From the NCBI GenBank assembly GCA_022865305.1, contig JALHSP010000116.1, positions 1 through 64,000 of the forward strand: a stretch of 64,000 bases of DNA, in the 5' to 3' direction. Shown one piece after another: positions 19,613-31,077 of the stretch. The notes beneath the pieces were generated by a model, which did no database searches, had not been told where the DNA came from, and worked only from the letters and a program-made list of their open reading frames with translations. Both the position numbers and the translations under genes were made by a program. The DNA comes from Bacteroidales bacterium. Its GTDB lineage: Bacteria; Bacteroidota; Bacteroidia; Bacteroidales; VadinHA17. Each line of letters begins with the position of its first letter. The first letter of the stretch is position 1.

Positions 19613-19649
19613 AAATAAGCCCAGATATTGTTATTTTAAAAAATAATTA

Positions 19650-19677
19650 TAAATTGCCATATCAATATAGCAATTTA
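19650..19677. promoter_or_regulatory. 28-bp palindrome covering the Rrf2 start: likely autoregulatory operator
   Basis: Arms TAAATTGC (19650-19657) and GCAATTTA (19670-19677) are perfect inverted copies; inside, ATAT and ATAT are also symmetric, so 24 of 28 positions obey dyad symmetry. The last base is the A of the ATG. NsrR/IscR-type regulators bind palindromes of similar size, so binding here would repress the regulator and the two oxidase-like genes behind it. Confidence 0.55.
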
Positions 19678-20081
19678 TGAATTTCAGTAAAACAACTTCT
19701 TATTCATTGAATGTGCTGAGCTATATGGCAAAGTATGAGGATCGTAAAATGTCAGCCAGCCTTCTTCATGACAAACTTCAAATCCCTTACTCCTATTTGA
19801 GATATATTCTCCTCACCCTGTCGAAAAATGGTTTCATCCATGGTACTACAGGAAGAAACGGAGGATTCCTTTTCAGTAAAGATATAAGCGAGATTTCCCT
19901 GGCTGATATTATAGAAGCAACTGAAGGACTTGATAGTTTTAACAGATGTGTTATGGGTTTTTCAGAGTGTCCTTTCAGCAACAAATGTGCAATGCATAAG
20001 CTCTGGGAAAAAACAAGAATCAGAATTCTTAAAGTACTCATGAAGACATCACTGGCAGATTTAATGAAAAAAAGACAATAA
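19677..20081 (+). CDS. Rrf2 family transcriptional regulator, Fe-S type (NsrR/IscR-like)
   Basis: 134 residues. The winged helix is at 1-65 (SKTTSYSLNVLSYMAKYEDR, IPYSYLRYILLTLSKNGFI, GRNGGFLFSKD). Cys91, Cys98 and Cys104 (CVMGFSECPFSNKC) match the three-Cys pattern that binds a [2Fe-2S] or [4Fe-4S] cluster in IscR and NsrR. NsrR senses NO. The next gene starts 24 bp after the stop, and that operon encodes a NOR-like oxidase, so an NO-sensing role is a reasonable inference. A palindrome overlaps its own start codon. Confidence 0.85.
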   Translation: MNFSKTTSYSLNVLSYMAKYEDRKMSASLLHDKLQIPYSYLRYILLTLSKNGFIHGTTGRNGGFLFSKDISEISLADIIEATEGLDSFNRCVMGFSECPFSNKCAMHKLWEKTRIRILKVLMKTSLADLMKKRQ

Positions 20082-20105: not shown

Positions 20106-20669
20106 ATGGTTGATTCTACAATGGTTCTTACCGGGCAGACAATAGCCTATACATTTTATTGCCTGGTGATTATTCTTCTGGTAGCCTGGTTCGCAATTAA
20201 GGTTACCGGAAAAGGTAAAAGCACTGCTGTCAAACCTGCTGTTTTCTACACATTCGTGGGGTTTCTGACGGTCATTGGCGTATCTCTGCATATTATAACA
20301 TATAATACCATTCCATGGGCAGAGATGGATCTTAACAGGTCCGATATTACACCTGATAAGACCTTTACAATAACAGTAAAAGATCATAAGTTTATCCTGC
20401 CTTCAGAAAAGCTGGTTATCAATGTGGATGACGTTGTTCTTTTTGATGTCGCATCGGAGGATCTGACATATGGATTTGGATTATTCAGGAGTGACAACAG
20501 CATGCTTTTTCAGATGCAGGTTGTTCCCGGGCATAAGAACGATCTGTTGTGGCATTTCGACCGCGAAGCTATATATTCGATCCGTTCAACGGAGTATTCA
20601 GGGCCGAAAGGTGTATTTATGGTTGAAAAAGACGTGGTACATGTTGTTCCGTCCAGTACAACAAATTAA
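20106..20669 (+). CDS. heme-copper oxidase subunit II-like cupredoxin without CuA ligands
   Basis: 187 residues. Two helices (about 9-31 and 41-62, IAYTFYCLVIILLVAWFAI and VFYTFVGFLTVIGVSLHII) are followed by a periplasmic cupredoxin domain (TFTITVKDHKFILPSEKLVI, VDDVVLFDVASEDLTYGFGL, QMQVVPGHKNDLLWHFDREA). The CuA loop, normally C-x3-C-x3-H-x2-M, reads STEYSGPKGVFM here: both Cys and the His are gone and only the Met remains. The subunit therefore cannot carry CuA, as in some NOR-type complexes. It is between the Rrf2 gene and subunit I, with short spacers (24 and 36 bp). Confidence 0.8.
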   Translation: MVDSTMVLTGQTIAYTFYCLVIILLVAWFAIKVTGKGKSTAVKPAVFYTFVGFLTVIGVSLHIITYNTIPWAEMDLNRSDITPDKTFTITVKDHKFILPSEKLVINVDDVVLFDVASEDLTYGFGLFRSDNSMLFQMQVVPGHKNDLLWHFDREAIYSIRSTEYSGPKGVFMVEKDVVHVVPSSTTN

Positions 20670-20705
20670 TAATAATCTATTTACAAATTTCAAACTTCTC
20701 ATAAT

Positions 20706-22325
20706 ATGAGTTTCACTAAAACCCTTATAAATGGAGAGCAGGGACTTTTCAGGCCCGATACGCTTACTCCAATGCAGAAACTTACACTTAGGTTTGTCGT
20801 TGTTGGACTTATCTATTTCGGATTCGTAGTGATAGAAGGAATGCTGATGCGTTTATATGAGGTCAAACCTCTGCCATTCATAACGGAACCGCAGTTCTTT
20901 GCAATAATGACTGCACATCCGCTGGTGGGAATTTTCGGTTCAACGTATTCAATTGTCTGCGGGGCTTTTCTATTCCTGGTACCCTTCCTGATGAAGAAGC
21001 CATTATGGAGCATCAAGCTTGGAAACTGGACCTTTCTTCTTATCACCATCGGAACATTTATATTCTGGTTTGCCGGTTTTGTAAGCCATTATGCTCCTCT
21101 TTATACTTTATACTGGCCGCTGCCAGCCGACTTCTCCCAGTTCAGTGTCTGGGGAGGTACATTCTTTATTGTTGGCATTGCTCTTGTAATGGTTGGGACT
21201 GCTTTATTCATAATTAATATCTTCAAAACCATTGCTTACACGCCTGAAGGTATGGAAAAACAACGTGCCGGTGCACTTCTTTCATCTGCCCTCGGGATTA
21301 CAGGTTTCAATAATCTTTTCAGGAAAAACAAGAAAGAGCATCTTGTTCCATTGCCCGTCGCAGCAGTTGCCCGCGGAAGTGTTGATATGGCACTTAATAC
21401 CATAACAATACTGTTTACCGGAGTGCTGATACTTATATATATGATCGGGGCAATTCTTGGCTTCGACCTCAAGGAAACAGCTATTGACGCACTTCTGTAT
21501 AAAAACTGGTTCTGGTGGGGGCTTGACCTGATTGCTGACGGACTTGTTCTTATCTTTGTTGCAGGAACGTGGTACCTGCTGGCTACAATGATAAGCGGCA
21601 AACCTCTTTTTATGCAAAATATTGCAAGAGCCGCATTGCTTGTTGAACTGATTGTTTCATGGACTGTCTGGTCACATCACCTCCTCTCCGATCAGGCACA
21701 GCCAAATACACTGAAAGTTATTTCAGGTGAAATGGTCACTGCATTTGAACTGATCACACAGGGACTTGCATTTTTTATTACCCTGGCTACATTATGGAGT
21801 GCACGTCCGCTGAAAATGACAAATCCGCTTAAATTTCTTCTTGGTGGATTACTTGGATTTGCACTTGCGGTACCTGCCGGGATTATGCAGGCTGACGTCG
21901 GGCTCAACAGAATATTACATAATACACAGTGGGTGGTTGGTCCGCATGTACATGTTGCAGTACTTGTTGGCCTGACCATGACACTCTATTCAGCAATTTA
22001 CCTTCTTTTGCCTGTTTTAACCAATGGCGCTCAGCTTTACAGTCAGAAGCTGGCGAATATTCATTTCTGGTGTCATCTGACCGGAGGAATCGGGATGGGT
22101 GCTTTTATGGGTATGGCCGGGTTAAACGGGATGCTAAGGAGATCGCTGTATATAAACGGTGAATTCAACATATTTATGATCCTGGCAGCATTATCAGGTA
22201 CTCTGTTATTGATCGGATTCCTGGTTTTCTTTTACAATATCGTAATGAGTGTCGGACTCAAAGGAGTTTTAGGTATTTTTACACCTGCAAAGATCAAAAC
22301 TAAAGATCTGGTACCTTTAATATAA
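20706..22325 (+). CDS. heme-copper oxidase superfamily subunit I, NOR-like with altered active site
   Basis: 539 residues, about 12-14 helices. Conserved heme ligands: His71 in MTAHPLVGIFGS (helix II), His414 and His416 in GPHVHVAVLVG (helix X). Two metal-site histidines are present, His324-His325 in WTVWSHHLLS (helix VII). Helix VI aligns best with the cNOR motif WWVVHLWVEG, but reads WWGLDLIADG (270-279), so the metal-ligating His is Asp274 and the Glu is Asp278. It is neither a standard A-type oxidase (no HPEVY) nor a standard NOR. NO reduction is the best guess, from the NsrR-like regulator and the CuA-less partner subunit. NOR-like families with unusual helix VI ligands have been described; I cannot place this one without alignment. 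Confidence 0.8.
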   Translation: MSFTKTLINGEQGLFRPDTLTPMQKLTLRFVVVGLIYFGFVVIEGMLMRLYEVKPLPFITEPQFFAIMTAHPLVGIFGSTYSIVCGAFLFLVPFLMKKPLWSIKLGNWTFLLITIGTFIFWFAGFVSHYAPLYTLYWPLPADFSQFSVWGGTFFIVGIALVMVGTALFIINIFKTIAYTPEGMEKQRAGALLSSALGITGFNNLFRKNKKEHLVPLPVAAVARGSVDMALNTITILFTGVLILIYMIGAILGFDLKETAIDALLYKNWFWWGLDLIADGLVLIFVAGTWYLLATMISGKPLFMQNIARAALLVELIVSWTVWSHHLLSDQAQPNTLKVISGEMVTAFELITQGLAFFITLATLWSARPLKMTNPLKFLLGGLLGFALAVPAGIMQADVGLNRILHNTQWVVGPHVHVAVLVGLTMTLYSAIYLLLPVLTNGAQLYSQKLANIHFWCHLTGGIGMGAFMGMAGLNGMLRRSLYINGEFNIFMILAALSGTLLLIGFLVFFYNIVMSVGLKGVLGIFTPAKIKTKDLVPLI

Positions 22326-24158: not shown

Positions 24159-24953
24159 CTAAATATCATTTTCCCCCTTCACATAGCCAAAGTTGGCAAG
24201 GATACCACCATCGACATACAGGATATGTCCATTGACAAAATCGCTTGCTTTTGAGGCAAGGAAAAGTGCTGCATTAGCAACATCTTCAGGTTCACCCCAC
24301 CTTCCTGCAGGCGTACGGGTCATGACAAGGTCATTGAACGGATGTCCATTCTCACGTATCGGAGCAGTCTGTGAGGTTGCAATATAACCAGGACCTATTC
24401 CATTGATCTGGATATTGTATTTTGCCCATTCACAGGTCATATTCTGAGTAAGCAGCTTAAGTCCCCCTTTTGCAGAAGCATAGGCTGATACAGTATTGCG
24501 TCCGTAAACACTCATCATTGAACACATGTTGATGATCTTGCCATTTCGTTTTTCTATCATTTTCGGAACTACACGTTTTGATACTATTAATGGAGCAACA
24601 AGATCGACATCAATAACCTGCTTATAATCTGCGACAGCCATTTCGAGAATCGGGATCCTCTTTATAATTCCGGCATTATTGACCAGAATATCGATAGAAC
24701 CAACATTCTTCTCAATCTGTGAAATCCCTTTATCGACATCCTTTTCATCTGTCACATTGAATTTCAGAGTGTAGATTTCCAGACCTTCTTTTTTGAAACT
24801 TTCCCTGCAGGTCTGCAGCTTTTCATCCTGAATATCGTTGACACAAACTCTGGCTCCGGCTTTACCAAGTACCAGACCAATTGCCAGACCAATACCATGA
24901 GTGCCTCCTGTAACCAGGGCAACTTTTCCTGTCAGATCAAATAGCTCTTTCAT
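24159..24953 (-). CDS. kduD: 2-dehydro-3-deoxy-D-gluconate 5-dehydrogenase (SDR)
   Basis: 264 residues. Classical short-chain dehydrogenase: cofactor motif TGGTHGIG (16-23), NNAGI, catalytic Ser in CSMMSVYG and YASAKGG (Tyr-x3-Lys), and a C-terminal YVDGGILANFGYVKGE. The length and the motif MTRTPAGRWGEPEDVANAAL fit KduD/gluconate 5-dehydrogenase. KduD reduces 2,5-diketo-3-deoxygluconate to 2-keto-3-deoxygluconate with NADH, the step after KduI. It lies 8 bp after kduI and is translated in the same mRNA. Confidence 0.9.
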   Translation of the reverse strand: MKELFDLTGKVALVTGGTHGIGLAIGLVLGKAGARVCVNDIQDEKLQTCRESFKKEGLEIYTLKFNVTDEKDVDKGISQIEKNVGSIDILVNNAGIIKRIPILEMAVADYKQVIDVDLVAPLIVSKRVVPKMIEKRNGKIINMCSMMSVYGRNTVSAYASAKGGLKLLTQNMTCEWAKYNIQINGIGPGYIATSQTAPIRENGHPFNDLVMTRTPAGRWGEPEDVANAALFLASKASDFVNGHILYVDGGILANFGYVKGENDI

Positions 24954-24961
24954 ATGAGGGG

Positions 24962-25798
24962 TTATTTCAAATTATCGGGATACCGGACATCCATATCGCC
25001 ATAGTCGAGATTCTCACCCGCCATACCCCAGATAAAGGTATAATTTGAAGTACCTGCGGCGCTATGTATGCTCCATGATGGAGAAAGAACAGCCTGTTCA
25101 TTTTTCATCCATATATGTCTGGTTTCATCAGGGTTGCCCATAAAATGACAAATTCCCTGTTTCTCCGGCACTTCAAAATAGAAATAGGCTTCCATTCTCC
25201 TGTTATGAGTATGTACAGGCATAGTATTCCAGACACTGCCCGGTTTAAGCTCAGTCATCCCCATCTGAAGCTGGCATGTTTGTATCACACTATTAACCAG
25301 CAATTTGTTTATAGTCCTGTGATTTGAGGATTCAGGATTTCCCATAACGACAACTTCAGCGTCTTTTAATGTAACCTTTTTCGAAGGGTAAGCATGATGG
25401 GCAGGTGCAGAGTTGATATACAATTTTGCAGGATTTCCGCTACTAGCAGATTTAAAAACAACATCTTTTGTGCCTTTTCCAAGATACAATGCTTCTTTAT
25501 GACCAAGTTCAAAGACAGTCTCTCCCGTTTCAATGATTGCCGGCCCGCCTGTGTTAATCATTCCCATTTCCCTCCTTTCAAGGAAATAGGTTGCTTTAAG
25601 ATCATCCGCTGTTTCAAGTTTTAGTTCTTTCTTTACAGGCATTGCACCACCCACCATATATCTGTCGTACAATGAATATACCAGGGATATCTCGTCTTCA
25701 ACAAAGACTTTCTCGATTAAAAATTCCTTCCTGATCTTTTCGGTATCATACCTCTTGAAATCTTCAGGATGTGAAGCGTATCTTAGTTCTACTTTCAT
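24962..25798 (-). CDS. kduI: 5-dehydro-4-deoxy-D-glucuronate isomerase
   Basis: 278 residues, the standard length. Cupin metal ligands are seen in MPVHTHNRRMEAYFYFE (two His and Glu) and SPSWSIHSAAGT (third His). The end YGDMDVRYPDNLK is close to the E. coli protein. KduI converts 4-deoxy-L-threo-5-hexosulose uronate, the open form of unsaturated galacturonate, to 2,5-diketo-3-deoxygluconate. It needs the unsaturated uronate that the upstream GH105 enzyme releases. Operon order: GH105, kduI, kduD. Confidence 0.95.
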   Translation of the reverse strand: MKVELRYASHPEDFKRYDTEKIRKEFLIEKVFVEDEISLVYSLYDRYMVGGAMPVKKELKLETADDLKATYFLERREMGMINTGGPAIIETGETVFELGHKEALYLGKGTKDVVFKSASSGNPAKLYINSAPAHHAYPSKKVTLKDAEVVVMGNPESSNHRTINKLLVNSVIQTCQLQMGMTELKPGSVWNTMPVHTHNRRMEAYFYFEVPEKQGICHFMGNPDETRHIWMKNEQAVLSPSWSIHSAAGTSNYTFIWGMAGENLDYGDMDVRYPDNLK

Positions 25799-25821
25799 AT
25801 TATATGGTTTAAATGATTTTT

Positions 25822-25859
25822 AAATTGTTGCAAGTTGCAACATGCAACCTGCAACTGTT
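25822..25859. repeat. TTGCAAC-type intergenic repeat
   Basis: TTGCAAGTTGCAACATGCAA and related units fill the gap between kduI and the GH105 gene. The same words occur at 19480 and 29668-29745. The units are partly self-complementary (TTGCAA, GCATGC-like). Confidence 0.45.
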
Positions 25860-27020
25860 TCAAAATATCCCCTTATCTATCATTTTATATATCTGTGTTC
25901 CTGCCAGCAAAAATCCTCCCACGCCATAGACCTCGGTCATTTCGTTTGTAACTGCTTTAGGATCAGCACCAATTGGCTGGATAAATCCCACCTTCCCTTC
26001 CGGCCACACTGAGCGGACCATTGATTTCCAACCTTTAATAACTGCAGGAAGATATTTATCCTTTTCAAGATAACCATTTTCGACACCCCATGCCAGCCCG
26101 AAAACAAAAAAGGTAGTTGCGCTCATTTCCGGATTAGGGTAGCTTGCCGGATCAAGAAGGCTTGCATGCCACGATCCATCCGGCTGCTGAAGAGAAACAA
26201 GCTTTTCAGCCATCTCTTTAAATATAGTGACAAAGTAATCCTTATATTCATATTTAGCCGGTAATTCCCTGATAATTATTGGTAAACCCGCAAAAACCCA
26301 TCCGTTACCACGTCCCCAGAAGACTTTTGCTCCATTGTCTTCTTTCCGTGTGAAATAGTTAGAATCCCTGAAATATAAATCTTCTTCCTTATCGTACAGA
26401 TAATCAGTAGTGACTTTGAATTCCTGATACATAAAATCGAGGTATTTCTTTTTATGCGTAACATTTCCCATTTTTGCCCATACCGTCGGACCCATAAAAA
26501 GAGCATCACACCAGGACCATCTCTGGGTTGACCAGTATTCTTTGGTATTTACAAATTTAAGGTCGCCCTTTGCAGGATCTTTCAAAATCTGGTCCAGGTA
26601 ATCCCTCAGAGGCTTTATCATTTTCTTATCTTTATACTCTCGGTAAAGTTCAATATACATCTGACCCACGCAATAATCGTCTGCATGGTATCTTCGAAGA
26701 GGATTATCATGAATATAATATGTCCATGAATTTTTCTCTGCTATTCCCCTGAGCCAGTCGTAGTAACTATCATCGCCAGCTATACCTGCCCATTCAACCA
26801 TTCCGGCATAAAGGGCAGCATTAGTCCAGTCGGCAAGGTGATGTGTAAGAGGCGTTTTAATCTGCCAGTCTGCAACCGCTTTAAGAACAGTCTTAATATC
26901 ACTCCTGGTAAGGTTATCTTTGAAGGCAGGTACCATTTGTTCCTGAGGGTATCCGGGGGTTACTGAAAAGTAAAAAACAGCAAACAGGAATGTAAAAATA
27001 TATTTCATTGCTTTGATCAT
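25860..27020 (-). CDS. GH105 unsaturated rhamnogalacturonyl/glucuronyl hydrolase
   Basis: 386 residues with a signal peptide (MKYIFTFLFAVFYFSVTPGY). The (alpha/alpha)6 barrel of GH105 is shown by the typical DYCVGQMYIELYREYKDKKM, WCDALFMGPTVWAKM, VFWGRGNGWVFAGLPIII and PDGSWHASLLDP. GH105 removes the 4,5-unsaturated uronate from the non-reducing end of rhamnogalacturonan or pectin lyase products. The product feeds KduI, encoded next. A second GH105 gene lies at 39404. Start could be MIKAM or the inner MKYIF (27008). Confidence 0.9.
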   Translation of the reverse strand: MIKAMKYIFTFLFAVFYFSVTPGYPQEQMVPAFKDNLTRSDIKTVLKAVADWQIKTPLTHHLADWTNAALYAGMVEWAGIAGDDSYYDWLRGIAEKNSWTYYIHDNPLRRYHADDYCVGQMYIELYREYKDKKMIKPLRDYLDQILKDPAKGDLKFVNTKEYWSTQRWSWCDALFMGPTVWAKMGNVTHKKKYLDFMYQEFKVTTDYLYDKEEDLYFRDSNYFTRKEDNGAKVFWGRGNGWVFAGLPIIIRELPAKYEYKDYFVTIFKEMAEKLVSLQQPDGSWHASLLDPASYPNPEMSATTFFVFGLAWGVENGYLEKDKYLPAVIKGWKSMVRSVWPEGKVGFIQPIGADPKAVTNEMTEVYGVGGFLLAGTQIYKMIDKGIF

Positions 27021-27047
27021 TTATTTTTGCTTATGTTTCAGATTAAA

Positions 27048-27055
27048 CAAAAATA
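27048..27055 (-). promoter_or_regulatory. -7 element for the GH105-kduI-kduD operon
   Basis: On the minus strand TATTTTTG matches TAnnTTTG, and a TTG lies about 18-19 bases upstream where the -33 element is expected. Transcription would start near 27040, about 20 bp before the GH105 ATG. Confidence 0.45.
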
Positions 27056-27136
27056 CAACTTTGGATGTAACTGCAATTAATAATCAGTTTCATTATTCAA
27101 TAAAATAATTCAAATATCTGCTAAAACTTACGTGAA

Positions 27137-27185
27137 ATTTCTTGAAGAAATGATTTGTTATTTATATTTTCGTGATCGTTAACGA
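27137..27185. promoter_or_regulatory. two palindromes between the divergent pectin operons
   Basis: ATTTCTTGAAGAAAT (27137-27151) is a perfect 15-bp palindrome and TCGTTAACGA (27176-27185) a perfect 10-bp one with a central TA, both lying between kduI/GH105 and uxaC. LacI-family operators are palindromes near 14-20 bp; the lacI gene is in the rightward operon, so these are candidate sites for it. Confidence 0.4.
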
Positions 27186-27240
27186 GTTATTATTTGTATA
27201 TTTCAACGGTAATATCTTACCTTTAATCAAACTCTGTTTT

Positions 27241-28644
27241 ATGAAACCATTTATTCATGAGGACTTCCTGCTAAACAATAAGACTGCCTCAAGGTTATAT
27301 CATCAATATTCTGAAAGTCTGCCTATTATCGATTTCCATTGTCATCTCTCCCCTGCTATGATCGCTGATGACCGGCAATTCGGAAATCTTACTCAGGCGT
27401 GGCTCGAAGGAGATCATTATAAATGGCGTGCAATGAGAACAAATGGTATCAGTGAAAAATACTGTACAGGCAAAGCATCTGACCCAGAAAAATTTCAGAA
27501 ATGGGCAGAAACGGTACCTGCAACAGTAGGGAATCCTCTCTATCACTGGGCACATCTTGAACTTGCAAGGTATTTCAATATTTACGAATTGCTTTCTCCA
27601 TCGACAGCAAAAGAGATATACGAAAATGCAAGCGCCATGCTTCAAACCAAAGAATTCAGCATCAGGTCGCTAATTAAAAGGATGAAAGCAGAGGTGATCT
27701 GCACTACTGATGATCCAACGGATGATCTTGAGCTCCATAAGAAACTGAAAGGTTTATCCAACGTGTCAGTTCTACCTACTTTCCGGCCGGATAATGTGGT
27801 AAAAACTGAAGATCCTGTAAAATTCAAAGCTTATATAAAGAAACTCGAAAATGCAGGCGGAACTGGTATAACAAGTTTCGGAAAACTAGTTGAAGTAGTG
27901 GATAGCAGACACAAGTTCTTTCATGAAATGGGTGCCAGACTTTCCGATCATGGCCTTGAGCGGTTTTATTTTGCTCCGTATACTGAAAAAGAGATTGATA
28001 AAATATTCGCGAAACTCCTGAAAGGCGAATCTCTTTCATGTGAAGAATCTGAAAAATACAAAGCTGCTGCAATGACAGAAATCTGCCGGATGAACCATAA
28101 AAGAGGGTGGACACAGCAGTTTCATGTAGGTGCAATAAGAAACAATAATACCCGCATGTTCCGTTTAATGGGACCTGACACAGGATGGGATTCAATCGGT
28201 GTTCCTCAGGATGCTTTTAAAATGTCGAAATTCCTGAGTACCCTTGATAACACAGAGCAGCTTGCGAAAACAATTCTTTATAATCTTAATCCGGCAGATA
28301 ATGAAATGATGATCACCATGGCAGGAAATTTTAATGATGGTTCGACAGCAGCAAAAGTTCAATATGGACCGGCATGGTGGTTCCTCGATCAGAAGAACGG
28401 AATGGAAAAACATCTGAAGGATCTTGCTGCTCTTGGACTTATGAGAAGGTTTATCGGGATGGTTACCGATTCCAGAAGCTTTCTTTCCTACCCGCGTCAT
28501 GAATATTTCAGGCGTCTGGTATGCAATTATGTCGGCGAACAGGTCGAAAAAGGTCTGATACCTGATGAAGATGAACTTTTAAAGCCTCTGATTGAGGGAA
28601 TATCATATAAGAATGCAAAAGAGTATTTCGGATTTGGCAAATAA
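27241..28644 (+). CDS. uxaC: glucuronate/galacturonate isomerase
   Basis: 467 residues, the normal length. N-terminal FIHEDFLLNNKTASRLYHQY and the metal-binding DFHCHLSPAMIADD identify UxaC. It isomerises D-galacturonate to D-tagaturonate and D-glucuronate to D-fructuronate. I start at ATG 27241; the open frame extends to 27172 but without homology. It is the first gene of the rightward hexuronate operon and diverges from the kdu operon, with two palindromes in between. Confidence 0.95.
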   Translation: MKPFIHEDFLLNNKTASRLYHQYSESLPIIDFHCHLSPAMIADDRQFGNLTQAWLEGDHYKWRAMRTNGISEKYCTGKASDPEKFQKWAETVPATVGNPLYHWAHLELARYFNIYELLSPSTAKEIYENASAMLQTKEFSIRSLIKRMKAEVICTTDDPTDDLELHKKLKGLSNVSVLPTFRPDNVVKTEDPVKFKAYIKKLENAGGTGITSFGKLVEVVDSRHKFFHEMGARLSDHGLERFYFAPYTEKEIDKIFAKLLKGESLSCEESEKYKAAAMTEICRMNHKRGWTQQFHVGAIRNNNTRMFRLMGPDTGWDSIGVPQDAFKMSKFLSTLDNTEQLAKTILYNLNPADNEMMITMAGNFNDGSTAAKVQYGPAWWFLDQKNGMEKHLKDLAALGLMRRFIGMVTDSRSFLSYPRHEYFRRLVCNYVGEQVEKGLIPDEDELLKPLIEGISYKNAKEYFGFGK

Positions 28645-28740
28645 GAACCTCATCCCCCTTCCCCCTTCTCCCAGGAGAGAAGGGGTTATGAAAATATAAT
28701 CATTTAATCAAGTCCCTCCTGGGGAAGGGATTTATGGAGA
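28645..28740. repeat. CCCTTCTCCCAGGAG-type intergenic repeat
   Basis: The gap between uxaC and the SDR gene has CTCCCAGGAGAGAAGGGG and CCCTCCTGGGGAAGGGATTT as partly inverted units separated by an AT-rich stretch. It shares words with the repeats at 22324 and 32137. Confidence 0.5.
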
Positions 28741-28830
28741 GGAAAAATAACAGAGAATATGTTTAAACTAAGAATTCTAAATGCATTTGTTAAATATTGT
28801 AACGGGATTAATCATATATAAAACTTTTTT

Positions 28831-29667
28831 ATGAACGATTTTAATCTGAAAGATAAAGTTGCAGTAATCACCGGCGGAGCTGGTGTTATCTGCTCAGTGA
28901 TGGCAAAATCTCTTGCTGCACATGGTGTCAAAACAGTAATTCTGGACCTTAATAAAGATGCCGCAACCAAAGTGGCTTTAGAGATTGAAAAGGAGTATAA
29001 AACCTCATCACTGGGACTTTCGGCAAGTGTTCTTGATAAAAGTTCCCTGGAAGCTGCGAAAAAAGAGGTTCACGAAAAGTTCGGACCTATAGATATCCTT
29101 GTTAATGGTGCCGGAGGTAATTCTCCTTCTGCAACAACAAAGGTTGAAAAAATGGAGGGCTCAGAGAATCCTGAAGACACATTTTTTGGGCTCCAGATTG
29201 AAGGATTTGACAAAGTGTTCGACCTGAACTTTAAGGGAACAATAATTCCGTCAATGGTATTTGGTCCGGATATGGTAAAGAAGAAATCAGGTGTGATAAT
29301 AAATATCTCATCAATGAATTCCTACAGACCGCTAACCAAGATAGCTGCATATTCTGCTGCAAAAGCTGCTATAAATAATTTCACACAATGGCTGGCTGTC
29401 CATTTCTCAAAAACAGGTGTCAGAGTGAATGCCATAGCACCTGGTTTTCTGCTTACAAACCAGAACAGATTTCTGCTTGTTGATGAAAAAACCGGAGAAT
29501 CGACACCAAGGGGAAGAAAAATTATTAGCAACACTCCGATGGAAAGATACGGTACCCCCGGGGAATTAACCGGTACGTTATTATACCTGGCATCTGATCT
29601 GTCGAAGTTTGTTACAGGGATAGTCATTCCGGTTGATGGAGGATTCAGCGCGTATAGCGGAGTATAA
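28831..29667 (+). CDS. fructuronate reductase / D-mannonate oxidoreductase (SDR type)
   Basis: 278 residues. SDR fold: TGGAGVICSVMAKSLAAHG at the nucleotide site, NGAGGNSPS, ISSMNSYRPLTKIAAYSAAK with the Tyr-x3-Lys pair, and a C-terminal VDGGFSAYSGV. The insertion GSENPEDTFFGLQIEGFDKV and NAIAPGFLLTNQNRFLL are typical of the SDR-type D-mannonate oxidoreductases found beside uxaC in Bacteroidota. The enzyme reduces D-fructuronate to D-mannonate with NAD(P)H. In this operon fructuronate comes from UxaC directly or from tagaturonate via UxaE. Confidence 0.85.
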   Translation: MNDFNLKDKVAVITGGAGVICSVMAKSLAAHGVKTVILDLNKDAATKVALEIEKEYKTSSLGLSASVLDKSSLEAAKKEVHEKFGPIDILVNGAGGNSPSATTKVEKMEGSENPEDTFFGLQIEGFDKVFDLNFKGTIIPSMVFGPDMVKKKSGVIINISSMNSYRPLTKIAAYSAAKAAINNFTQWLAVHFSKTGVRVNAIAPGFLLTNQNRFLLVDEKTGESTPRGRKIISNTPMERYGTPGELTGTLLYLASDLSKFVTGIVIPVDGGFSAYSGV

Positions 29668-29745
29668 TGGTTATTGGTTGCTGGTTGCTGGTTACAAGAT
29701 GGGCTTTAAAATACCCTGCAACATGCAACATGCAACGTGCAACAT
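29668..29745. repeat. TTGCTGGTTGC / ATGCAAC intergenic repeat
   Basis: GGTTGCTGGTTGCTGGTT on the left and GCAACATGCAACATGCAAC on the right are inverted relatives that could pair into an imperfect hairpin. The same family occurs at 19480 and 25822. Confidence 0.5.
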
Positions 29746-29805
29746 ATAATTGAACAAAAATTGTTTTAATTTATTTTATAAGCATAGTTCTATTAAGAGA
29801 ACAAC

Positions 29806-31077
29806 ATGATCTACTATCAGTCAGGTTCTGAAAATACAGTAATAGGTCCTAATGACCTGGAATACGGGCTCTATTCAGCCCTTGTCAAGCTCGGGCCTAG
29901 AAAAAAAGTTCTTGTGGTTCCTCCTGATTTCACCCGTTTTCATTCAAGAGCCGGAGATCTGACCACACTTATTTATAATTACTATAAGAAAAACCTTAAA
30001 GATATACTGCCTGCTCTCGGTACACACACGCCAATGACTGATTATGAGCTTGCTGAAATGTATAAAGGAGTTCCAAAAGAGCTGTTTCGTGTTCATGACT
30101 GGAGAAATGATGTTATCACCGTAGGGACAGTACCCGGAGAGTATGTATCAAATATTACTGACGGAGCTGTTGATTATTCATGGCCGGCACAGCTAAACAG
30201 ACTGGTATTCAAAGGAGGACACGACCTTATCCTGTCAGTTGGCCAGGTAGTTCCACATGAAGTAGCCGGAATGGCCAACTACAATAAAAACCTTTTTGTA
30301 GGTACCGGAGGACCCAAAGGAATCAATAAAAGCCATTTTGTCGGTGCTGTTTACGGGATGGAGAGGATTATGGGAAAAGCTGTTAATCCGGTAAGGAGTA
30401 TGCTTAATTATGCTTCAGCACATTTTATTACGAATCTGCCTGTTATTTATATACTTACTATTATCGGTCGTGATGAATCCGGAAAGCTGGTAATACGTGG
30501 ACTCTATATTGGTGATGATGAGGAGGTATTCCGCCTGGCATCTGATTTATCGCTGAAGGTTAATTTTACGATACTTGATAAACCACTCAAGAAAGTCGTA
30601 GTGTACCTGGATCCCTCAGAGTTTAAAAGCACCTGGCTGGGAAATAAAAGCATTTACAGGACACGTATGGCAATGGCTGATAACGGAGAGCTTATCGTAC
30701 TTGCTCCCGGGCTGAAGGAATTTGGTGAAGATAAAGAGATTGACAGGCTCATAAGGAAATATGGTTACCGCGGAACGCCTTTAACCCTTACGGCAACTAA
30801 AGAGAATGAAGAGCTTCAGCAGAATCTGAGTGCTGCTGCTCATCTTATCCACGGCAGTTCAGAAGGCAGGTTCTCTGTCACTTATTGTCCCGGGCTCCTG
30901 ACACGTGCTGAAATTGAATCAGTGAACTTTAAATATGCCGATCTTGGGGAAGCATTAAAAAAATATAATCCCGAAAAGTTAAAAGATGGCTTTAATAAGA
31001 TGGCTGACGGAGAGGAAATTTTCTTTGTTTCAAATCCGGCAGTAGGATTATGGAGTTCAAAGGAACGGCTTAAATAA
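29806..31077 (+). CDS. LarA-like nickel-pincer racemase/epimerase (DUF2088)
   Basis: 423 residues. The catalytic residues of lactate racemase LarA are kept with exact spacing: His74 in GTHTPMT, His151 in PHEVAG, Lys161 (+10, the Lys that carries the nickel pincer cofactor) and His177 (+26). The phosphate-site motif DFTR (41-44) is also present. LarA homologues epimerise the 2-hydroxyl of short or sugar acids; some act on gluconate. Being between the mannonate-forming reductase and gnd, this one may interconvert D-mannonate and D-gluconate. It would need LarB/C/E elsewhere for the cofactor. Confidence 0.85.
   Translation: MIYYQSGSENTVIGPNDLEYGLYSALVKLGPRKKVLVVPPDFTRFHSRAGDLTTLIYNYYKKNLKDILPALGTHTPMTDYELAEMYKGVPKELFRVHDWRNDVITVGTVPGEYVSNITDGAVDYSWPAQLNRLVFKGGHDLILSVGQVVPHEVAGMANYNKNLFVGTGGPKGINKSHFVGAVYGMERIMGKAVNPVRSMLNYASAHFITNLPVIYILTIIGRDESGKLVIRGLYIGDDEEVFRLASDLSLKVNFTILDKPLKKVVVYLDPSEFKSTWLGNKSIYRTRMAMADNGELIVLAPGLKEFGEDKEIDRLIRKYGYRGTPLTLTATKENEELQQNLSAAAHLIHGSSEGRFSVTYCPGLLTRAEIESVNFKYADLGEALKKYNPEKLKDGFNKMADGEEIFFVSNPAVGLWSSKERLK

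Follow-up and report, generated by a model that had tools for sequence, protein, structure and literature searches.

Two conserved aspartates in helix VI of a Bacteroidales heme-copper subunit: a probable nitric oxide reductase of the gNOR type

Introduction

Which reaction is catalyzed by a heme-copper subunit that keeps its heme ligands and reads aspartate where a metal-binding histidine is expected, and whose partner has lost the ligands of CuA? The question is raised by a gene pair on the Bacteroidales contig JALHSP010000116.1 (assembly GCA_022865305.1), of which a stretch of 64,000 nucleotides, here called the window, was analyzed. A sequence-only reading of the pair had suggested a variant NO reductase with a carboxylate-rich metal site. 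This is still the best reading, but the combination of features has already been proposed as the gNOR family, which that reading had itself listed for comparison. We consider it likely that the locus encodes a two-subunit, quinol-oxidizing NO reductase of the gNOR type with a regulator of its own.

The gNOR (norGH) family is said to have been proposed by Hemp and Gennis in 2008 and by Murali et al. in 2024. The latter may also report a second Asp in gNOR, equivalent to D274 of the present protein. Table A4 of PMC8756737, adapted from Hemp and Gennis (2008), gives gNOR an active-site residue D and no proton channel, and places it in Sulfurimonas, Sulfurovum, and Persephonella; we take this D to mean the helix VI Tyr position, D278 in the present protein. 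A passage of PMC8906906 describes gNOR as quinone-oxidizing, non-electrogenic, and encoded by norGH, a passage of PMC6094997 names Damo_1118-1119 of Methylomirabilis gNOR, and a passage of PMC11388526 treats the family as proposed only and as related to B-family enzymes. The gNOR literature passages searched do not mention Asp in place of a metal His, and those of the Melioribacter papers PMC5492636 and PMC3534657 do not mention an enzyme with both aspartates.

Gene Organization and Conserved Residues

Three genes lie head to tail, a regulator followed by subunit II and subunit I. The features are listed below in window coordinates.

19649..19678, + strand: perfect 9-bp inverted repeat with a 12-bp spacer, overlapping the Rrf2 start (from the sequence)
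19677..20081, + strand: Rrf2-family regulator with three cysteines, C91, C98, and C104 (Pfam Rrf2, 6.1e-29)
20106..20669, + strand: subunit II, membrane-anchored cupredoxin-type domain, CuA ligands lost (TIGR02866, 2.9e-5, below cut-off)
20469..20471, + strand: Y122 of subunit II, at the CuA His position (6PTT alignment, 80-row conservation)
20586..20621, + strand: S161-T-E163-Y-S165-G-P-K-G169-V-F-M172 of subunit II, former CuA loop without Cys or His
20706..22325, + strand: subunit I, heme-copper superfamily catalytic subunit, probably of gNOR type (PF00115, 1.6e-56)
20916..20918, + strand: H71, low-spin heme ligand (kept in 81/81 loci)
21507..21560, + strand: helix VI, WFWWGLDLIADG..., with D274 at the probable metal His position and D278 at the Tyr/Glu position
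21675..21680, + strand: H324-H325, helix VII metal ligands (conservation)
21747..21749, + strand: E348, helix VIII; shares a MAFFT column with the helix VIII Glu of qNOR
21945..21953, + strand: H414 (high-spin heme) and H416 (low-spin heme) (conservation)

Subunit I is recognized by the Pfam and NCBIfam models as a clear COX1 protein, yet its score lies far under the CoxA and CcoN cut-offs; subunit II is a faint match to cytochrome oxidase subunit II in the same collections. Conservation was followed in 81 loci, namely the window's own copy and the best 80 of 192 confirmed relatives, whose MAGs are labelled Bacteroidota, Ignavibacteriota, and some other phyla. It was also followed in 240 listed proteins, made up of the best 120 matches from each of two protein searches (3366 and 2932 matches in total, with 7999 candidates scored per search); the protein of the window and that of the second query are among them. 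Subunit II precedes subunit I in 80 of the 81 loci, the window included, and at the exception, L025, just 40 bases of DNA are present. The flanking genes of the window encode an aldo-keto reductase, a DUF5698/DUF2179 protein, and KduI (Pfam/NCBIfam); counting the window, these adjoin the pair in only 5, 7, and 5 of the 81 loci, respectively.

Several neighboring genes are recorded here as observations. Positions 24159-31077 of the window carry genes for the use of sugar acids (KduI, GH88, UxaC, and a lactate racemase-like protein) together with two SDR-like dehydrogenases identified by eye, a set that resembles pectin or uronate breakdown. Directly 5' of subunit II, L056 (6864-7325) has a small COX1-like protein, below the PF00115 cut-off and faintly similar to DUF2871, and L066 (2357-2815) has a small protein that resembles it by eye. 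DUF6448 proteins lie upstream of the subunit pair in L038, L018, and L074.

The heme ligands H71, H414, and H416 and the helix VII pair H324-H325, which the sequence-only reading had recognized and correctly positioned, are invariant in all 81 loci, as are D274 and D278. Among the 240 listed proteins, every one keeps the pair of aspartates, the spacing of 50 residues to the His-His pair, E348, and S318. A Chloroflexi-labelled branch, 40-44% identical, also keeps the heme ligands, the His-His pair, and both Asp. The retention of the D274/D278 pair throughout the loci and the listed proteins looks like selection rather than decay.

No tyrosine is found at either of the active-site places: helix VI has D278, and S318 stands where cbb3-like proteins have the helix VII Tyr (240/240 listed proteins in both cases). 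We take these two places to be those of the active-site Tyr in the O2-reducing members. E348, a third NOR-like carboxylate, shares a MAFFT column with the helix VIII Glu of qNOR, but helix VI of qNOR is poorly placed in that alignment. When the A-type is aligned by hhalign, E348 is paired with a different A-type Glu.

Register of Helix VI

The position of D274 depends on how helix VI is aligned. In a pairwise phmmer alignment to the ba3 oxidase (1EHK chain), helix VI is gap-free, with D274 on His233 and D278 on Tyr237. Conversely, MAFFT, a profile alignment to mitochondrial COX1, and hhalign all break helix VI with gaps, so that D274 no longer falls on the metal His. With hhalign, gaps appear against the A and B types in both local and global runs, D278 is paired with the metal His of the A-type, the register is off by one against the C type, and no usable alignment to qNOR is obtained. 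In the MAFFT alignment with qNOR, the qNOR helix VI His also falls outside the column of D274.

After the hhalign comparison had failed to confirm the register, the spacing between helices VI and VII was counted in 46 A, B, C-like, and qNOR proteins (types sorted from motifs, qNOR by PF22085) and in a 56-row family alignment composed of the window, 17 of the 80 related loci, and 38 of the 240 listed proteins. The helix VI His precedes the helix VII His-His pair by 49 residues in 25/25 A-type and 9/9 B-type proteins, by 50 in 5/5 C-type or C-like proteins (counting L139, a long and unsure branch in the tree), and by 51 in 7/7 qNOR proteins. D274 precedes the pair by 50 residues in all 56 family rows, whereas D278, at 46, lies outside the range of 49-51. 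The residues at 51 to 49 before the pair are L-D-L or L-D-M in these rows. Four residues past the ligand, Tyr is found in 34/34 A- and B-type proteins, Glu in 7/7 qNOR, Ala or Gly in the five C-like proteins, and Asp in 56/56 rows of the present family. The proposal that Asp274 replaces the His and that Asp278 takes the Glu position is thus borne out by the ba3 alignment and the spacing, and both residues are conserved in 81/81 loci.

A histidine elsewhere on helix VI, which the sequence-only reading had singled out as the finding that would speak against it, is ruled out as the missing ligand, since none occurs between D274-9 and D274+19 in any of the 56 rows. H128 and H212 were also rejected as replacement ligands; each is kept in 77 of the 81 loci, and neither has a counterpart in L120 by eye. 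It is the ba3 alignment and the spacing, rather than the multiple alignment, that make D274 a metal-ligand candidate, and the residue would be expected to face the binuclear site.

The published geometry of qNOR agrees with a scheme of D274, D278, and E348, as judged from residue positions. In the qNOR structure described in a passage of PMC13087809, the FeB ligands are His486, His537, and His538, with Glu490, Glu494, and Glu559 nearby. D278 follows D274 by four residues, as Glu490 follows His486. Two of the three qNOR Glu places would be filled here by D278 and E348, and the third, that of Glu494, reads Leu282 (D274+8).

Relationship to Other Heme-Copper Enzymes

The sequence-only reading described subunit I as NOR-like. 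Locally this is correct, since the register WWxx[H/D]Lxx[E/D]G, with a carboxylate four residues past the metal ligand, is shared with qNOR and cNOR. On whole-protein similarity, however, subunit I sits with the A/B-type oxygen reductases and not with qNOR: hhalign E-values are 1.5e-35 for the A-type, 4.5e-32 for the B-type, and 2.4e-19 for the C-type, and no whole-protein similarity to qNOR was found (hhalign probability 4.9%). The 48 PDB sequences matched with E-values of 0.01 or less all carry the name cytochrome oxidase or COX1, and none is named NOR.

The sequence-only reading had proposed an alignment and tree with A, B, C, and qNOR sequences as a check. In the resulting tree of 66 rows, which like the alignments was made without eight gNOR rows (L101, L107, L108, L111, L112, L113, L115, and L116), the partial L118, the duplicate L119, and five loci with no tblastn match (L099, L100, L109, L114, and L117), the 20 rows with both aspartates form one separate clade with a support of 100/99. 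This clade stands beside the B-type oxidases, away from cbb3 and qNOR, with a weak support of 89/68 at a point where long branches meet.

A plasmid tblastn search for known gNOR returned only 4 records, all below 30% identity, and no known gNOR holder appears among the names in the best 120 of 3366 and best 120 of 2932 protein matches.

Subunit II and the Electron Donor

Subunit II matches the cytochrome oxidase subunit 2 chain 6PTT by phmmer with an E-value of 0.017. In this alignment, the places of the CuA ligands His, Cys, Cys, and His read Y122, S161, S165, and G169. The earlier claim of CuA loss therefore stands for both cysteines and goes further for histidine: not one His but both are gone. 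Y122 and E163 are invariant in 80/80 subunit II rows, S161, S165, and G169 occur in 95% or more of them, and Cys is absent from positions 161 and 165 throughout. The distant L120 subunit II, which lies upstream, shares the Tyr and likewise lacks Cys at these positions, although the place of G169 is taken by a His.

Since CuA is lost and the model search gives no match to bc1 cytochrome b in the host genome, quinol is the likely electron donor. The host also has a propeller-like protein with several CxxCH motifs (L158:1315-3237), probably another c-type cytochrome protein. It suggests that c-type cytochromes are present, so that a cytochrome donor is better described as unlikely than as excluded. 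On the reverse strand of L120, a frame that by eye resembles a type II NADH:quinone oxidoreductase precedes the Chloroflexi-type pair, which would fit a quinol donor.

Regulator and Upstream Palindromes

The regulator scores above the TIGR00738 cut-off and has the three conserved cysteines of an Rrf2-family NsrR, but it reaches only 50.9 bits against the NsrR equivalog cut-off of 182. C91 and C98 are present in 44/44 and C104 in 43/44 of the Rrf2 proteins, window included. An Rrf2 gene precedes subunit II in 43 of the 74 related loci with more than 1500 bases upstream of subunit I, and 31 of the 74 are without one. The protein possibly binds an Fe-S cluster and senses NO; given the low NsrR score, it could sense something else.

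The perfect inverted repeat at 19649-19678 is a possible autoregulatory operator. A loose palindrome pattern, defined after the sites had been inspected, occurs 5' of the Rrf2 start in 20 of 44 loci, compared with 4.1 expected from base shuffles. Eighteen of the 20 lie at -23 or -24; the matches of the window and L067 are at other places, and the perfect repeat of the window is in another register than the pattern. The 8-base arms alone are less striking, with at least 7 matching bases in 26/44 loci against about 31% in shuffles.

Ten neighbor proteins for a domain search were chosen by eye. Among the loci without Rrf2, Crp/Fnr-type regulators occur near the pair in L021 (divergent), L074, and L077, and hemerythrin-domain proteins, just over the cut-off, lie upstream of it in L038 and L066. 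A passage of Rodionov et al. (PMC1274295) ties NsrR (Rrf2), HcpR (Crp/Fnr), and hemerythrin-like genes to the N-oxide response.

Host Genome

The host genome is 99.46% complete with 1.71% contamination in 176 contigs. A PF00115 search finds one protein, subunit I, the sole heme-copper protein found. The model searches give no match to NrfA, Sec-type NosZ, NirK, or the qNOR domain PF22085. The NirS model gives three partial matches, the best of which covers positions 31-108 of 368 with 28.7 bits against a cut-off of 25.5. This best match lies in the propeller-like multi-CxxCH protein, which was rejected as NirS, and with the NirK and NirS models no NO-forming nitrite reductase could be made out. 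Cytochrome bd and the hybrid cluster protein (hcp) are present. Upstream of hcp there is no perfect palindrome with 8-bp arms and no ATTGC/GCAAT repeat; the loose pattern matches once at 140 bases upstream and twice more beyond that, which was given no weight, and a link to NO through hcp was rejected.

Assignment and Alternatives

The subunit pair is most likely a Bacteroidota member of the already proposed gNOR family, matched by descriptors and not by a named sequence. The assignment is made because the Asp, the cupredoxin-type subunit II, and the quinone donor agree with the published gNOR description. D278 stands at the helix VI Tyr position in 81/81 loci and 240/240 listed proteins. The cupredoxin-fold subunit II accompanies it in 80/81 loci, with a CoxB model match of 2.9e-5 below the curated cut-off, and the loss of the CuA Cys and His would suit quinol oxidation. 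The ba3-type K channel is not kept, its places reading V285, W289, Q352, and A355 in the 1EHK alignment. These we take to correspond to the ba3 K-channel residues Y244, Y248, S309, and T312. B-family kinship is consistent with the weakly supported sister position in the tree, although the hhalign E-value is slightly better for the A-type. One difference lies in the hosts, since the sources cited above report gNOR from Sulfurimonas, Sulfurovum, Persephonella, and Methylomirabilis.

Membership of the other groups does not fit. With cNOR and qNOR the pair shares the helix VIII Glu and likely NO chemistry, but the third FeB histidine is replaced by D274, whole-length similarity is absent, subunit I has no cytochrome c-like domain, and PF22085 has no match anywhere in the host genome. 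The ba3 B-type and A-type oxygen reductases are the closest in sequence, yet the third metal His, the active-site Tyr, and CuA are all missing here. The lack of this His and of the Tyr argues against the A, B, and C families alike. According to PMC8756737, eNOR and sNOR are also NO reductases with a cupredoxin subunit II; its Table A4 gives Gln for eNOR and Asn for sNOR as the active-site residue, in contrast to the Asp found here.

It is improbable that the clade is an NO-reducing family distinct from gNOR that acquired the same Asp by convergence. The gNOR name rests on descriptors, the gNOR literature passages searched are silent on Asp in the metal His place, and the two branches are only 40-44% identical; on the other hand, the published descriptors agree, and D is given solely for gNOR in Table A4 of PMC8756737. 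A terminal oxygen reductase with a changed metal site, acting as an oxygen scavenger, would account for the A/B-type relatives and for the name cytochrome c oxidase subunit that sources naming the subunit I protein give it. We consider it very improbable, as only two of the three metal His and neither Tyr are present, the ba3 K-channel places are altered, and the host has cytochrome bd for O2. Just as little chance is given to a reaction with another small substrate (e.g., hydroxylamine, nitrite, or NO dismutation) or to a gas-binding protein without catalysis: the 2-His/2-carboxylate site is not known from solved members, and an NO-forming nitrite reductase could not be made out in the host, but the protein retains its heme ligands and a large invariant core, and the nearby regulators belong to families with N-oxide-responsive members.

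Proposed Mechanism and Implications

In the gNOR-type enzyme that we propose, electrons would pass from quinol to the low-spin heme (H71/H416) and on to the high-spin heme (H414). Facing this heme, H324, H325, D274, and D278 would bind a non-heme metal, probably iron, at which two NO molecules would combine to give N2O. D278 and E348 may replace the FeB-site glutamates of cNOR and qNOR in metal tuning and proton delivery. Subunit II, being without CuA, would receive no electrons from cytochrome c and may instead shape the quinol site. Attack of NO on an Fe-S cluster of the Rrf2 protein could derepress the operon.

We tentatively suggest, while regarding it as unlikely, that a 2-His/2-carboxylate non-heme metal site (D274, D278) with E348 in the second shell arose from an oxygen-reductase ancestor, as an independent origin of NO reduction. 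If true, this would be a binuclear site of independent origin unlike that of any solved member and not yet described at that detail. In any case, the 2-His/2-Asp site offers a good test of which ligands are truly needed for NO coupling.

The role in the host may be NO removal rather than full denitrification. A quinol-driven NO scavenger that releases N2O is most likely, because no other heme-copper protein and no bc1, Sec-type NosZ, NrfA, or NirK match was found. With subunit I as the only heme-copper protein and no Sec-type NosZ match, the host would be a net N2O source if the enzyme is active, and in such bacteria the removal of NO and the release of N2O easily go unnoticed because sources that name the protein call it a cytochrome c oxidase subunit. 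The distribution is patchy: in the phylum survey, a match of 1e-20 or better occurs in 10 of the 296 genomes sampled, a count that includes the genome of the window, with only a fragment in G263 and two pieces in G156. Of 400 genomes in the phylum of G300, two (G300 and one other) match better than 1e-100. The matches in the other 65 genomes are all weak, and the 28 of these matches that became loci look like A-, B-, or C-like oxidases. A COX1-family match in an Ignavibacteria-labelled genome (G303:C99:7040-8374, L109) contains five in-frame TGA codons and represents either a pseudogene or assembly errors.
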